Assembly (NCBI RefSeq): GCF_014395785.1
Contig: NZ_CP060713.1
Span: 3,438,501 to 3,502,500, forward strand
Direction of reading: 5' to 3'
Source: Nocardioides mesophilus
Lineage (GTDB): Bacteria; Actinomycetota; Actinomycetes; Propionibacteriales; Nocardioidaceae
DNA: 64,000 nt
In this document: piece by piece, positions 7,659-47,541 of the stretch
Layout of the letters: each line of letters opens with the position of its first letter
Numbering within the stretch: position 1 is the first letter of the stretch
Translations under genes and position numbers: made by a program
Notes under the pieces: model-generated
Database searches by the model: none
Told to the model about the DNA's origin: nothing
Seen by the model: only the letters and a program-made list of their open reading frames with translations

Positions 7659-8429
7659 TTATGTCTTGAAGAGCGTCGCGAGTCCGGTCATTGCGAGCAG
7701 TCGCGCGCACACCGGGTTGTGGCTGATGACCAGGGTCCCGTGTGACCGTCTGATCTCGCGGTGTGCGATGACCAGGGCGCTGAGGGCAGAGGCATCCATG
7801 AAGGTCACGCCGTCGAGGTTCATGATGATGCGGTTGCGGCCTTGGGCGAGGAAGCCCTGGATGACCCGGCTCATCTGCGGAGCCGTGGAGAGGTCGAGCT
7901 CTCCGGTGAGGGCAACGACGTCGTGTCCGGCTCCCGGGAGCACGGTGACGCAGCTCAACGCGATCCCGGCCTCACTCCCGTAGGCCGATGATGTGTGGGC
8001 GGGGAGTGCGAAGGCTCGGTCCGTCGCGGCGGGGGCTTCACTTGGCTGAGGTAGTTCACGTTCCCAGAGCCTCGTGATGATCTCGGTGATGGCGGCGGCG
8101 GGTTCAGGAAGGTGGGGTACCCCACCGAAGAGTTTGACGATGCCTTCCGCGATGACACGCACCTTCACGTTCGCGGTCACGGATAGTCGCACGAGCACCT
8201 GAAGGGCAGCGTCAGCGTCGATGACGTAGCGCTGCATGAGCATGCCTCTTGCCTGGTCGATCAGCGGGCGGGTCGCCAGGGCCACTTGCAGCGCTGCCAC
8301 CTGCTGTCGGAGTGCGTCGACTTCGCTGCCCGCCTCGTCCGTTGTGCTGTGGACTTCGCCTACCTCGCGCGCGGCGCTGGTGACGTCCGTGACCGGCGTA
8401 GAGGTGGCGTCAGGCGGGGGATGCGTCAT
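7659..8429 (-). CDS. ANTAR-STAS fusion regulator
   Basis: The 256-residue protein combines an ANTAR RNA-binding antiterminator domain (about residues 38-100, with the core LIDQARGMLMQRY) and a C-terminal STAS domain (about 160-256) of anti-sigma-antagonist type. The STAS loop reads FMDASALSALV, so the position equivalent to the phosphorylated serine of SpoIIAA is kept (second residue after Asp). ANTAR domains bind paired hexanucleotide stem-loops in nascent RNA and prevent termination; STAS domains bind anti-sigma kinases or sensory partners. I chose ATG 8429 because the 37 residues upstream in frame look non-coding. It is divergent from two GAF-ANTAR genes, suggesting a shared regulatory module. 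Confidence 0.85.
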   Translation of the reverse strand: MTHPPPDATSTPVTDVTSAAREVGEVHSTTDEAGSEVDALRQQVAALQVALATRPLIDQARGMLMQRYVIDADAALQVLVRLSVTANVKVRVIAEGIVKLFGGVPHLPEPAAAITEIITRLWERELPQPSEAPAATDRAFALPAHTSSAYGSEAGIALSCVTVLPGAGHDVVALTGELDLSTAPQMSRVIQGFLAQGRNRIIMNLDGVTFMDASALSALVIAHREIRRSHGTLVISHNPVCARLLAMTGLATLFKT

Positions 8430-19285: not shown

Positions 19286-19441
19286 TGACCGCACGTTACC
19301 GCCCCGGACCCCGGCCATTGACCGTCCCAAATGTGCGTGGGACTCTAGGAGTCGAACACCACCACACTTCCTGGCTGCGACCCAGCCGGCTCCCGAGTGT
19401 GTCCGGTGTGCCTTCTTCACCTCCAACGAAGGACTCTCCCT

Positions 19442-24500: not shown

Positions 24501-25093
24501 TGGAGGAGTTCACCGCGCTGGAGGAGCGGCACAAGTTCCTCACCGAGCAGCTCGAGGACCTCCGCAAGACCCGCAAGGACCTGCTCGACATCGTCCGCGA
24601 GGTCGACGACCGCGTCCAGCAGGTCTTCACCGAGGCGTGGGAGGACGTGCGCGCCGCGTTCGACTCGGTGTTCTCGCGGCTGTTCCCGGGGGGAGAGGGC
24701 AGGCTGGTGCTGACCGACCCCTCGGACATGCTCACCACCGGCATCGAGGTCGAGGCCCGGCCGCCGGGCAAGAAGGTCAAGCGGCTCTCCCTGCTCTCCG
24801 GCGGAGAAAGGTCGCTGGTGGCGGTCGCCTTCCTGGTCGCGCTGTTCAAGGCCCGGCCGTCGCCCTTCTACATCCTCGACGAGGTGGAGGCAGCCCTCGA
24901 CGACACCAACCTCGGCCGGCTCCTGGAGATCTACGAAGAGCTGCGCGAGAACAGCCAGCTGCTCGTGATCACCCACCAGAAGCGGACGATGGAGGTCGGC
25001 GACGCGCTCTACGGCGTCACCATGCGCGGCGACGGGGTCTCGGCGGTGATCTCCCAGCGGCTGCGCGAGACGGCGGGGTCGTCGCCGGCATGA
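21515..25093 (+). CDS. smc: Chromosome segregation protein SMC
   Basis: SMC is the ATPase core of the bacterial condensin, acting on DNA with ScpA and ScpB. The 1192-residue protein has the Walker A motif GPNGSGKSN at residues 31-39, two long coiled-coil arms, a glycine-containing hinge in the middle (around 505-660, LLATTGTVSGLLGSVAALV), and the C-terminal signature LSGGERSLVAVA (near 1095) followed by Walker B FYILDEVEAALDD. TTG 21515 was chosen because GAGGAG precedes it by 6 bases and the N-terminus YLKSLTLRGFKSFA is canonical. The stop overlaps the next start (ATGA). Confidence 0.97.
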   Translation: MYLKSLTLRGFKSFASATTLQLEPGITCIVGPNGSGKSNVVDALAWVMGEQGAKSLRGGKMEDVIFAGTSGRPPLGRAEVALTIDNSDGALPIEYSEVTISRTMFRNGGSEYAINGQSCRLLDVQELLSDSGIGREMHVIVGQGQLDSILRATPEERRGFIEEAAGVLKHRKRKEKALRKLDSTEGNLTRLSDLLSEIRRQLKPLGRQAEVARRAAVVQADVRDARARLLADDLVAARTSLEQELADESVLVRRRAEVEGALERTREAEAALEAALREDLPALAAAQETWFGLSGLRERLKGTAGLAAERARNAAESTQEPAAGGRDPEQLVAEAERVRGQEQEIAAEVERHRAALDAALAARQAAEEAHTAEDRRIAGLLRAAADRREGLARLHGQVNALKSRAAAADDEVGRLGAARQEAVARAERAQRDFTALETRVAGLDAGEEGLDAEHEGASSTLADIEERLAKTREETQAAERERSALGARKEALELGLNRKDGAGALLATTGTVSGLLGSVAALVSVRSGFETAVAAALGSAADAVAVEHVDAAMGALEHLKSEDLGRAGLLLGGLDGEDGSAADPAGWPGLDGTGSYAVDVVDCPETLHPALHRLLFKVAVVEDLEAARDLVHRLPDLTAVTREGDLVGTHFVSGGSSAQPSLLEVQAAVDEATEQLQASSHACERLGFDLARLEEERAQAQHRVDVALARLHESDATLAAVAEELGQLGSLARSAKGEADRLQGAIAAAEAARDQNLAGLAELEQRLLSAEEAPDEEPDTEELGRLADAARTCRAQEMDARLALRTAEERARALAGRADSLMRSAQAEREARARAAARRERLRREGRAAEAVTRGVTVVLQRLEVSIAAAAQQRTDVEESRRGREQELMAVRARLRDLGKEHDELVTTVHRDEMARAQQRMRIEQLEERALEELGLDPEALVGDYGPDQLVPPVLGPDHEGEAPEPVPFVREEQQKRLRAAERALATLGRVNPLALEEFTALEERHKFLTEQLEDLRKTRKDLLDIVREVDDRVQQVFTEAWEDVRAAFDSVFSRLFPGGEGRLVLTDPSDMLTTGIEVEARPPGKKVKRLSLLSGGERSLVAVAFLVALFKARPSPFYILDEVEAALDDTNLGRLLEIYEELRENSQLLVITHQKRTMEVGDALYGVTMRGDGVSAVISQRLRETAGSSPA

Positions 25094-25545
25094 GCACCCC
25101 CCGGGCGCCCCGGCCGACGCGGGGAGACTTCGCCGCCTGGCGTCTGGCCACCACCCGGTGGGCCGACGATGACATCTACGGGCACATGAACAACGCGACG
25201 TACTTCGAGCTGATCGACACCGCCGTGAACGCGCACCTGCTCGAGGCCACCGGCACCGATATCCGCGTCCAGCGCGCGATCGGGGTGGTCGCAGAGGTCT
25301 CCTGCCGCTACTTCCGTGAGATCGGCTTCCCCGACCCGGTCGACGTCGGACTGGCCGTGGAGCGGCTCGGCACCTCGTCGGTGACCTATCGGATCGGCAT
25401 CTTCCAGGGACCCGGCGAGGAGGCGGCCGCCGAGGGCCGCTTCGTGCACGTGTACGTCGACAACGCCGGCGGGCCGGGGGAGCGGCCGGTGTGCCCGGTG
25501 CCCGCGGAGATCCGCGCCGCTGTCGAGCCGCTCGTCCGCGGCTGA
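25090..25545 (+). CDS. Acyl-CoA thioesterase (hotdog fold, 4HBT type)
   Basis: A 151-residue hotdog-fold protein of the 4-hydroxybenzoyl-CoA thioesterase family. The catalytic aspartate region reads ADDDIYGHMNNATYFELIDTA, the family hallmark. It hydrolyses acyl-CoA thioesters; the chain-length preference is not visible. Its ATG overlaps the smc stop, so it is translationally coupled to smc although the functions are unrelated. Gene order smc-thioesterase is seen in other high-GC actinobacteria. Confidence 0.88.
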   Translation: MSTPRAPRPTRGDFAAWRLATTRWADDDIYGHMNNATYFELIDTAVNAHLLEATGTDIRVQRAIGVVAEVSCRYFREIGFPDPVDVGLAVERLGTSSVTYRIGIFQGPGEEAAAEGRFVHVYVDNAGGPGERPVCPVPAEIRAAVEPLVRG

Positions 25546-32066: not shown

Positions 32067-32102
32067 CCCACCCGGCACCTGCCTCCCAAGGACTGACCAC
32101 CA

Positions 32103-34988: not shown

Positions 34989-35597
34989 GTGGCCGTCAAG
35001 ATTCGCCTGAAGCGCATGGGCAAGATCCGCGCGCCGTACTACCGCGTCGTCGTCGTCGACTCCCGCAAGAAGCGGGACGGACGCGTCATCGAGGAGATCG
35101 GCAAGTACCACCCCAAGGAGGAGCCGTCGGTCATCGACGTGACCTCCGAGCGTGCGCAGTACTGGCTGGGTGTGGGTGCCCAGCCCTCCGAGGCCGTCGA
35201 GGCACTGCTGAAGATCACCGGTGACTGGCAGACGTTCAAGGGCCTTCCGGGCACCGAGGGCACCCTGCGGACCGCCGAGCCGAAGCGGGACAAGGCAGAG
35301 ATCTTCAACGAGGCGCTCAAGGAGTCCTCGAGCGAGCCCCGTGCCGAGGCCGTCACGAAGAAGTCTGCGGCCAAGAAGGCCGACAAGGCCCCCGCGGCTG
35401 CCGAGGAGTCCCCGGCCGAGGCGCCCGCCGCCGAGCAGGCCGCCCCCGAGGCTGTCGCCGAGGAGGCACCGGCTGCCGAGGCTCCCGCCGAGGAGGCTGC
35501 TGTCGAGGCTCCCGCCGAGGAGGCTGCTGTCGAGGCTCCCGCCGACGAGGCCGCTGCCGAGGCTCCGGCCGCCGACGACAAGCCCGCCGAGGCCTGA
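34989..35597 (+). CDS. rpsP: 30S ribosomal protein S16 with long acidic tail
   Basis: S16 is an early-assembling small-subunit protein. The 202-residue sequence has the S16 core in residues 1-80 ([20 protein letters not shown] and [22 protein letters not shown]). After a Lys-rich linker comes a low-complexity tail (about 115-202) of Ala, Glu and Pro, including three copies of EAPAEEAAV-like units. Typical bacterial S16 has about 80-90 residues, so more than half of this protein is disordered extension. GTG 34989 is the start; AAGGAG precedes it. Confidence 0.96.
35478..35558 (+). repeat. 27-bp tandem repeat in the S16 tail
   Basis: Units 35478-35504 and 35505-35531 are identical and encode EAPAEEAAV; 35532-35558 is a degenerate third copy. 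Confidence 0.85.
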
Positions 35598-35599
35598 GC

Positions 35600-35842
35600 A
35601 TGCTGGCCGAGGCGCTCGAGCACCTGGTGCGCGGCATCGTCCGTCACCCCGACGACGTGAGCGTCCGCGACAAGGAGCTCCGTCGCGGCTCGGTCCTCGA
35701 GGTGCGGGTCAACCCCGAGGACCTGGGCAAGGTCATCGGACGCAACGGTCGCACCGCGACCGCGCTGCGCACGGTGATCGGCGCGTTGGCGGGCAAGGGC
35801 GGGGCACGCGTCGACTTCGTCGACGTGGACCGCCGCCGCTGA
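35600..35842 (+). CDS. KH-domain RNA-binding protein (KhpA-like)
   Basis: An 80-residue protein that is almost only a KH domain, with the RNA-binding loop as [20 protein letters not shown] (residues 43-62, containing the GxxG motif GRNG). KhpA proteins bind RNA with KhpB and affect cell size and translation; the gene is standard between rpsP and rimM. Stop-to-start gap from rpsP is 2 bp. Confidence 0.92.
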
Positions 35843-35854
35843 GCAACATGCACG

Positions 35855-35891
35855 AGCGGGGAGGTCGCCCACACCGGGCGGCCTCCCCGCT
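35855..35891 (+). terminator. Strong hairpin between khpA and rimM
   Basis: AGCGGGGAGGTCGCCC (35855-35870) pairs with GGGCGGCCTCCCCGCT (35876-35891) across a 5-base loop; the single non-Watson-Crick position is a G-U pair. No uracil run follows. Inside this operon it may be an attenuator or processing site. Confidence 0.5.
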
Positions 35892-35918
35892 TCGTCGTCC
35901 CCGGAGGAGGGGTCATCC

Positions 35919-36476
35919 ATGAGCACCACGCAGGTCGTCGTCGGCCGCACCGGTCGCCCGCACGGCATCCGGGGTGAGCTCTCGGTCGAGCCGCGCACCG
36001 ACGAGCCCACGCGGCGCTTCGTCGTCGGGGCCGTGCTGGCCACCGAGACACCGCGGGGAACCCCGCCGCACGGGCCGGGCCGCCCGGCCGCCCTCACCGT
36101 CGCCGGCGTCCGCTGACACCAGGACCGGCTCCTGGTCCGGTTCGAGGAGGTCGACGACCGCGACTCGGCCGAGGCGGTGCGCGGCCTGCTGCTGCTCGCG
36201 GAGGTCCCGCTCGACGAGGTCCCCGAGGACCCCGAGGAGTTCTACGACCACCAGCTCGTCGGGCTGCGCGTGCAGACCGAGGACGGCGTCGACGTCGGGG
36301 AGCTGACCGCGGTGCAGCACGGCACCGCCCAGGACCTGCTGGTGGTCCGGCGCAGCGACGGCACGGAGGCGCTGGTGCCGTTCGTCAGCGCCCTGGTGCC
36401 GACCGTGGACCTCGCCGGTGGCCGCGTCGTGGTGGCGGACCGGCCGGGGCTGCTCACCCCGCTGGAGGAGGGCTGA
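35919..36476 (+). pseudogene. rimM: 16S rRNA processing protein RimM, interrupted by an in-frame TGA
   Basis: RimM helps mature the 30S head and the 3' end of 16S rRNA. The frame from ATG 35919 reads [20 protein letters not shown], runs to codon 65 and meets TGA at 36114-36116. The same frame then continues without shift through [24 protein letters not shown] and the PRC-barrel part ([15 protein letters not shown] ... [13 protein letters not shown]) to 36476, giving 185 codons as in normal RimM. Relatives often have Trp at this place, and TGG to TGA is one base change. It may be a nonsense mutation, readthrough or a sequencing error. Both halves are otherwise intact. Confidence 0.85.
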
Positions 36477-36478
36477 GG

Positions 36479-37267
36479 ATGCGCATCGACGTGGTGAGCA
36501 TCTTCCCCGACTACCTGGCGCCGCTGTCGCTGTCGCTCCCGGGCCGGGCCCAGGAGAGCGGCCTGCTCGAGGTACACGTGCACGACCTGCGGGACTGGAC
36601 CCACGACCGGCACCGCACGGTCGACGACACCCCGTACGGCGGCGGGGCCGGCATGGTGATGAAGCCGGAGCCGTGGGGGGAGGCGCTCGAGGCCGTGACC
36701 GGCCGGGGCGCCGGCACGACGAACGACGCGACGGACGGGGCAGACCCCGCCGGGCCGGTGGTCGTGGTGCCGACGCCGTCGGGAGAGCCGTTCTCGCAGG
36801 CGGCCGCCGCCGAGCTGGCGCAGCGGACCCACCTGGTCTTCGCCTGCGGTCGCTACGAGGGCATCGACCAGCGCGTGGTCGACGACGCCCGGACCCGCTG
36901 GGAGGTGCGCGAGGTCTCGATCGGCGACTACGTGCTCAACGGCGGCGAGGTGGCCGCGCTCGTGATGATCGAGGCGGTGGTCCGGCTGCTGCCCGGCTTC
37001 ATGGGCAACCCGGAGTCGCTGGCCGAGGAGTCGCACGGCGTGGAGGGGCTGCTGGAGTACCCCGTCTACACCAAGCCGCCCGAGTGGCGGGGCCTCGAGG
37101 TGCCCGAGGTCCTCTTCTCCGGCCACCACGCCAGGATCGCCCGCTGGCGGCGGGACCAGGCGCTGCGCCGTACCGCACAGCGCCGCCCCGACCTGGTCGC
37201 GCGGCTCGACCCGGACCGGCTCGACGGCCGGGACCGTGAGGTCCTCGCCGATTTCCCCGACGCCTGA
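36479..37267 (+). CDS. trmD: tRNA (guanine-37-N1)-methyltransferase
   Basis: TrmD methylates G37 of tRNAs read by CNN codons and prevents frameshifting. The 262-residue SPOUT-fold protein shows [41 protein letters not shown] and [19 protein letters not shown]. The ATG lies 2 bp after the rimM stop. All family motifs are complete. Confidence 0.97.
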
Positions 37268-37437: not shown

Positions 37438-37797
37438 ATGACCAACGTCATCGACACGCTCGCCGCTGCCGCCCAGCGCGACGACGTCCCCGCCTTCCGG
37501 GCCGGCGACACGCTCAAGGTCCACGTCAAGGTGGTCGAGGGCAACCGCTCGCGTCTCCAGGTGTTCCAGGGCGTCTGCATCCGCGTCCAGGGCTCCGGCA
37601 TCGGCCGCACGTTCACCGTGCGCAAGGTCTCCTTCGGTGTCGGCGTGGAGCGCACCTTCCCGCTGCACACGCCGATCATCGACCACATCGAGGTCGTCAC
37701 CCGCGGTGACGTCCGTCGCGCGAAGCTGTACTACCTGCGCAACCTGCGCGGCAAGGCGGCCAAGATCAAGGAACGCCGCGACGCGCCCGCCAGCTGA
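37438..37797 (+). CDS. rplS: 50S ribosomal protein L19
   Basis: L19 sits at the interface of the ribosomal subunits. The 119-residue protein contains [28 protein letters not shown] and [23 protein letters not shown] 37438 follows GAGGAG with 6 bases spacing; an in-frame GTG 21 bp upstream is rejected. TGGCAGAAT at 37274-37282 may be the -10 of its own promoter inside the trmD end region. Confidence 0.97.
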
Positions 37798-46491: not shown

Positions 46492-47541
46492 ATGGCCGTC
46501 GTCACCATGCGCCAGCTCCTCGAGAGCGGCGTCCACTTCGGGCACCAGACCCGTCGCTGGAACCCGAAGATGAAGCGCTTCATCATGACCGAGCGCAACG
46601 GCATCTACATCATCGACCTGCAGCAGTCGCTGGCCTACATCGACCGCGCCTACGCGTTCGTCAAGGAGACCGTCGGCAAGGGCGGCACCGTGATGTTCGT
46701 CGGCACCAAGAAGCAGGCCCAGCAGGCGATCTCCGAGCAGGCCACCCGCGTCGGGATGCCCTACGTGAACCAGCGCTGGCTCGGCGGCATGCTCACCAAC
46801 TTCCAGACGGTGCACCAGCGGATCAACCGCCTCAAGGAGCTCGACGAGATCGACTTCGACGACGTGGCCGGCAGCGGCCGCACGAAGAAGGAGCTCCTGG
46901 GCATGAAGCGGGAGCGTGACAAGCTCGACAAGACCCTGGGTGGCATCCGCGAGATGACCCGGACCCCGTCCGCGGTCTGGATCGTCGACACCAACAAGGA
47001 GCACCTGGCCGTCGAGGAGGCGCGCAAGCTGCGCATCCCGATCATCGGCATCCTGGACTCCAACTGCGACCCCGACCAGGTCGACTTCCCGATCCCGGGC
47101 AACGACGACGCGATCCGCGCCGTCAGCCTGCTGACCCGCGTGGTCGCCGACGCCGTCGCCGACGGCCTGATGTCGCGTTCGGGCGCCAAGGCCGAGGGCG
47201 CTGCTGCCGAGGCCGAGCCGCTCGCCGAGTGGGAGCGTGAGCTCCTGCAGGGCGACGCCGACCAGGCCGCCGTCGCCGCCACCGGTGGCACCACCGAGGC
47301 CACCGCCGCGGACGCCGGCACCGCGACCGAGACTCCGGCCAGCGAGGCCACCGGCGCCTCCTCCGAGGCTGCGGACGTTCCCGCCGCAGAGGCTGTGGCG
47401 GCCCCCGAGGCCCCCGCGGCCGAGACCGCTGTCGCCGAGGCGCCCGCGGCCGACGCCGCCGCGGCCGAGACCGCTGCGGCCGAGGCCCCCGCGGCCGACG
47501 CTGCCGCGGAGCAGGACGGCGCGGAGACCAGCCAGGCCTGA
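46492..47541 (+). CDS. rpsB: 30S ribosomal protein S2 with long Ala/Glu tail
   Basis: S2 binds late to the small subunit. The S2 core spans residues 1-230 ([34 protein letters not shown]). It is followed by about 118 residues of Ala/Glu/Thr/Pro-rich low complexity ending GAETSQA, making the protein 349 residues against about 240-290 usually. The tail resembles the tail of S16 in this window. ATG 46492. Confidence 0.96.

Follow-up and report, generated by a model that had tools for sequence, protein, structure and literature searches.

Loss of RimM, the 30S ribosome maturation factor, has been described in Escherichia coli, where deletion of rimM slows growth and impairs 16S processing (PMC9032327). 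UGA codons can be read as Trp by an unusual tRNA-Trp whose anticodon stem has 4 bp (PMC13092985). A third described system concerns errors of the consensus itself: in unpolished nanopore assemblies of Neisseria, 199 of 208 mismatching SNPs were G/C-to-A/T and 152 of the 208 lay at 5mC calls (PMC12506013), and modification-mediated mismatches have also been described (PMC10687267). A further report finds substitution errors without a dominant sequence context and lends no support to methylation as a cause (PMC12007338). For rimM itself, a limited search of the literature found no report of a natural nonsense codon, which is no proof that none exists.

The window analysed here is a stretch of 64,000 nucleotides from Nocardioides mesophilus, whose genome is a single contig of 4,488,624 bases with a completeness of 100 and a contamination of 0.04. 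On its forward strand, frame reading and Pfam place the rimM reading frame at 35919 to 36476, with one interruption: 65 codons (35919 to 36113), an in-frame TGA at 36114-36116, and 119 further codons (36117 to 36473) that lead to a terminal TGA at 36474-36476, with no other stop in the frame. Both RimM domains were matched by Pfam when the two pieces were searched separately. The 5' piece holds the first half of the N-terminal barrel (PF01782, positions 1-37 of 84), and the 3' piece holds the remainder of that barrel (RimM profile positions 53-80) and the PRC_RimM barrel (positions 2-69 of 69). An intact trmD (36479 to 37267, forward strand; Pfam tRNA_m1G_MT) follows, with its ATG at 36479, 2 bp past the end of rimM. 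The domains and the adjacency to trmD are those of a RimM gene, and only the TGA at 36114-36116 keeps it from being one uninterrupted frame. A sequence-only reading of this DNA had proposed exactly this picture – a TGA splitting an otherwise intact rimM, a 2-bp gap to trmD and a complete PRC-barrel part – and our analysis bears it out.

A search of the whole genome returned no second RimM match, and a scan of 35800-36600 for promoters and terminators found nothing. For the second half of RimM, the best matches in named records were from Nocardioides and other Nocardioidaceae, at identities of no more than 67%. The gene names rpsP, KH, rplS, ffh, lepB and rnhB are our own assignments from gene order or sequence, as are the roles given to the release factors, S13 and S19 beyond their Pfam matches; all of these are presumed. 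The frame that we take to be rpsP (S16; 35340-35597) ends in a long low-complexity tail of Ala/Glu/Pro repeats.

Alignment with relatives identifies the codon that was changed. At the site where the window has CGC TGA CAC, all six other genus genomes have CGC TGG CAC, and between the window and the closest relative (G001) 38 of 39 bases are identical, from that CGC through GAG GAG. The sole mismatch is the third base of the stop codon, which indicates a single G-to-A change. It had been suggested from the sequence alone that relatives often have Trp-His at this point, one base away; with RimM of the close relatives aligned at the codon, Trp is there in every genus genome, and in the wider set the residue is more varied. 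That wider alignment comprised 110 relative loci (111 rows with the window), 106 of them non-redundant as judged on the protein core. TGG was found in 47 of the 106 and a Val codon in 44, and the remaining 15 have Pro, Arg, Met, Ser, Ala, Leu, Glu, His or Asn; the position therefore tolerates several residues. Neither a stop nor Cys occurs at this column in any of the 110 aligned loci.

The same holds on a larger scale. RimM was matched in 55 of 58 genomes, our own included, and the other 54 have no stop inside the match. A family-wide tally gave a RimM match in 327 of 341 genomes, with no stop among the matches listed, and a 33-base pattern of the site had 0 matches in viral contigs. Because the stop is absent from the RimM of those 54 genomes and the codon is TGG in the genus, it is not a chance pattern. 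Programmed readthrough of a conserved stop was rejected on the same grounds.

Our preferred reading, to which we assign a probability of roughly 0.55, is that the assembly carries a wrong base in this TGA and that the codon in the cell would be TGG. A G would have been called as A in the consensus at the third base of codon 36114-36116; the rimM of the cell would keep its Trp codon, as in the genus relatives, and would work as an ordinary RimM. We infer a miscall at this base in place of a real change, and we favour this reading because E. coli pays for the loss of RimM, because no other part of the gene is damaged, and because the change, had the platform been nanopore, would fall in a known class of miscalls. 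Moreover, rimM is present in a single copy and its deletion carries a growth cost in E. coli, so that selection should oppose a real stop. Against an error, the assembly looks good by the contig number, completeness and contamination given above, and there is no sign of frequent stop-type errors in the 621 kb that we surveyed.

That survey comprised the window together with 28 stretches selected because they surround tRNA genes; at 621,227 bases it takes in 14% of the genome and is not a random sample of it. A first filter, which called for a coding signal in the same frame on both sides of a stop with a cut-off of 12, retained 18 candidates from 15,542 stops; rimM passed it narrowly, with an upstream score of 14.8. 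Ten of the 18 had a start codon 0-5 codons past the stop and were read as ordinary same-frame neighbours, and five lay opposite long frames with a GC3 of 0.94-0.99 and were shadows of those opposite-strand frames. Two more were gene ends according to Pfam, in one case a response regulator followed by RNase PH and in the other the end of a DUF881 gene followed by 40 matchless codons. The last was rimM.

A coarser second scan listed 73 stops within predicted coding segments, rimM included; another 45 segments had no stop nearby. An ATG or GTG lay at most 8 codons downstream of 35 of the 73. Among the other 38, six besides rimM, with gaps that were long or of coding appearance, were searched in Pfam, one lies in the window at 32094 and is described below, and the remaining 30 were judged by composition or by the shortness of what follows the stop. 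The stops in stretches L133 and L138 are gene ends (Pfam). In L113, the stop at 7963 separates a complete NIF3 gene from a coiled-coil/zinc-ribbon gene, and that at 19370 a complete KAS III gene from an acyl carrier protein; the stop at 18026 in L122 ends a GAF-domain gene, with no match after it. Elsewhere in L122 (11657-13999), frames of 585 and 195 codons stand in register with one TAG (13412) between them and have no Pfam match on either side; they may be one split gene or two frames.

Within the window, 34.3 kb is covered by homologous matches from G001 and a second relative, G003. Besides that of rimM, the stops met by the dominant matches are at 25543, 35775, 37399, 37411 and 46408, and none splits a gene in its own frame: 25543 closes the listed frame 24637-25545, beyond which the match extends 3 codons; 35775 lies within the preceding KH gene but out of the KH frame; 37399 and 37411 lie upstream of the rplS match, which starts at 37438; and 46408 lies upstream of the ATG at 46492. 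A further stop, at 32094, is 2 codons 5' of TTG 32103, whose frame is matched by G001 from 32097. In the 621 kb surveyed, then, an in-frame stop could be shown to interrupt a gene only in the case of rimM. The lack of a second such case speaks against poor polishing of the assembly as a whole, but is compatible with one leftover error. As an observation on another genome, the trmD of G003 (L144:11540-12896) matches that of the window at 51% in one frame, with about 100 middle residues matching at 71% from another frame, as if by two compensating frameshifts; indel errors in the single-contig assembly of G003 are a possible cause.

The sequence is accounted for equally well by an error of the consensus and by a nonsense mutation of very recent date, between which the alignment of relatives cannot decide. 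We regard a real TGG-to-TGA change, arisen very recently in the sequenced strain or its culture, as a serious possibility, if one that we rank second. RimM would be cut at 65 residues, and the resulting defect in 30S assembly would be eased by basal misreading of UGA or by suppressors elsewhere. Transitions of a single base are common among real mutations, and the single contig and high completeness of the assembly count on this side. The trmD gene has its own GGAGGAGG-type site 6 bases 5' of its ATG, so that polarity need not be lethal. Finally, E. coli lacking rimM is slow-growing yet viable, and suppressors exist (PMC9032327).

What limits such a mutation is its age. Outside the stop, rimM evolves like its neighbour genes and shows no decay, so that the stop, if real, must be very young. 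Against G001, pN/pS is 0.335 for rimM, 0.331 for trmD, 0.326 for rnhB, 0.343 for rpsP, 0.316 for the KH gene, 0.256 for ffh and 0.213 for rplS. Inside rimM it is 0.178 on the 5' side of the stop (65 codons) and 0.443 on the 3' side (116 codons); the latter exceeds every other value here and might point to relaxed selection on the 3' part, but we give it no weight, because the codons are few and the comparison integrates over all the time since divergence from G001. At otherwise invariant RimM columns, deviations confined to one genome number 2 in the window, 3 in G001, 8 in G003 and 2 in each of the other four genomes. An old pseudogene was rejected on this evidence: there is no other stop in the frame, pN/pS is ordinary, and only 2 deviations are unique.

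In E. coli, S19 and S13 are known sites of suppressors of rimM loss. The copies of both in this genome look ordinary beside those of five relatives each, which weighs against a nonsense mutation compensated in this way; G006, with no S19 match and an S13 match below the cut-off, was left out of the comparison. As to a release-factor defect, the three genes with an RF-1 domain contain no stops.

We also asked whether the TGA, if real, might be read. In the features tested, we found no sign of recoding by the cell. In the surveyed 621 kb, TGA is the main stop codon, terminating 365 of 419 gene-like frames, 126 of these as TGAC. UGA reassignment was rejected because TGA is the usual terminator and in-frame UGA does not recur at Trp codons; the predicted coding segments of the survey hold 2581 TGG codons, with rimM the one gene shown split. 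ARAGORN typed 47 tRNA genes, drawn from the stretches with all 45 RF00005 matches and from two further loci, one of which repeats a stretch. Among these a UCA anticodon occurs only in tRNA-Sec, and there is one gene for tRNA-Trp (CCA), with an ordinary anticodon stem of 5 bp and a sequence 100% identical in all seven genus genomes, our own included. A suppressor tRNA or altered tRNA-Trp was rejected accordingly: by anticodon none of those typed but tRNA-Sec reads UGA, and for tRNA-Trp, the one tRNA for which mutations outside the anticodon were also considered, the stem has its 5 bp.

The surroundings of the codon are equally plain. The local fold 3' of the rimM stop has a z of -0.43, no better than shuffles. 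A short inverted repeat, ACCAGGA/TCCTGGT, lies directly 3' of the stop (36118 to 36136, forward strand), and the same bases are found in G001, which bears TGG; the repeat is therefore not a recoding signal. Readthrough had been raised in the sequence-only reading, and a dedicated form of it finds no support in the tRNAs, in stop usage or in sequence context.

This leaves a tolerated readthrough, by which the near-cognate tRNA-Trp (CCA) would insert Trp at a low rate and a low supply of RimM would be enough or would be regulatory. The base after the rimM TGA is C, and UGA-C is a leaky context. The residue inserted would be the Trp conserved in the genus, and rimM is, to present resolution, under purifying selection. 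UGA is also the leakiest stop, and for Salmonella and E. coli a readthrough rate of at least 10^-2 to 10^-3 has been reported (PMC4989110). Basal misreading of this kind could, in the case of a real stop, give a trace of RimM, with the conserved Trp inserted if tRNA-Trp is the tRNA that misreads. Nevertheless, we judge the explanation improbable, given the normal and genus-wide identical tRNA-Trp, the restriction of UCA to tRNA-Sec, the frequent use of TGA and of TGAC to end genes, the ordinary fold and shared repeat downstream, and the lack of a stop in the domain in all 54 other RimM-matching genomes. A real TGA in a strain that subsists on RimM from near-cognate Trp misreading, with the supply of RimM set by the efficiency of termination, we rate slightly lower still.

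The genome does contain a gene for tRNA-Sec (G000:C1:3844872-3844962; 75.5 bits; anticodon TCA by ARAGORN), and from its presence the genome probably encodes at least one selenoprotein. The same gene is what speaks for insertion of selenocysteine at the rimM UGA. RimM is not known to have a redox active site, and none of the 110 relative loci has Cys at this column, where only W, V, P, R, M, S, E, A, L, H and N are found. For a SECIS element, the analysis covered the fold (z -0.43) and the repeat shared with TGG-bearing G001; this hairpin is not specific to this genome. Selenocysteine at this codon was accordingly rejected, and we hold it to be the least probable of the explanations considered.

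It had further been suggested that the second half of the protein starts at an internal GTG. The first ATG, GTG or TTG 3' of the rimM stop is a GTG at 36177 to 36179 (forward strand), and a frame of 99 aa from it contains the PRC barrel, the part needed for interaction with S19 in E. coli (PMC9032327). A free PRC-barrel protein might in principle be made from this start, with or without the 65-residue N-terminal piece. However, the stop cuts the N-terminal barrel in mid-domain, the profile breaking at 37/53 of 84. The GTG is also not conserved: of the 111 aligned rows, 81 have Leu at its column and 3, the window among them, have Val, which withdraws support from the proposed start. A GAGG sits only 2 bases 5' of the GTG, too close for a good ribosome-binding site. 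Finally, the stretch from stop to GTG looks coding, with a score of 10.8 for its first 15 codons and a GC3 of 1.0 and GC2 of 0.30 over 20 codons. We regard restart as very improbable.

The rimM TGA thus most probably reflects a miscalled base or a mutation of very recent date, and not novel decoding. For annotation, we recommend that rimM be marked as carrying either a suspected error of the consensus or a recent nonsense allele, and not be counted as gene loss or as evidence of recoding. Should the TGA prove real in a healthy strain, the locus would show how little RimM a bacterium needs, or would be a natural case of a tolerated nonsense codon in a factor for ribosome assembly.

Set beside the known systems, the locus has a resemblance to each. 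As in the E. coli loss-of-function mutants, a single-copy rimM is broken; those are deletions or point mutants with slow growth or a 17S rRNA phenotype (PMC9032327), whereas here the gene shows no decay. As with the 4-bp-stem tRNA-Trp, a UGA stands at a Trp position; in contrast to that system (PMC13092985), UGA is here the main stop, and the five stem pairs of the tRNA-Trp, together with its identity across the genus, mean that it is not of the UGA-reading type. Long-read consensus errors, of the G/C-to-A/T kind seen at methylated cytosines, differ in that no other stop-type error was shown here in 621 kb, and they share with this locus a lone G-to-A that breaks an otherwise intact, conserved gene.
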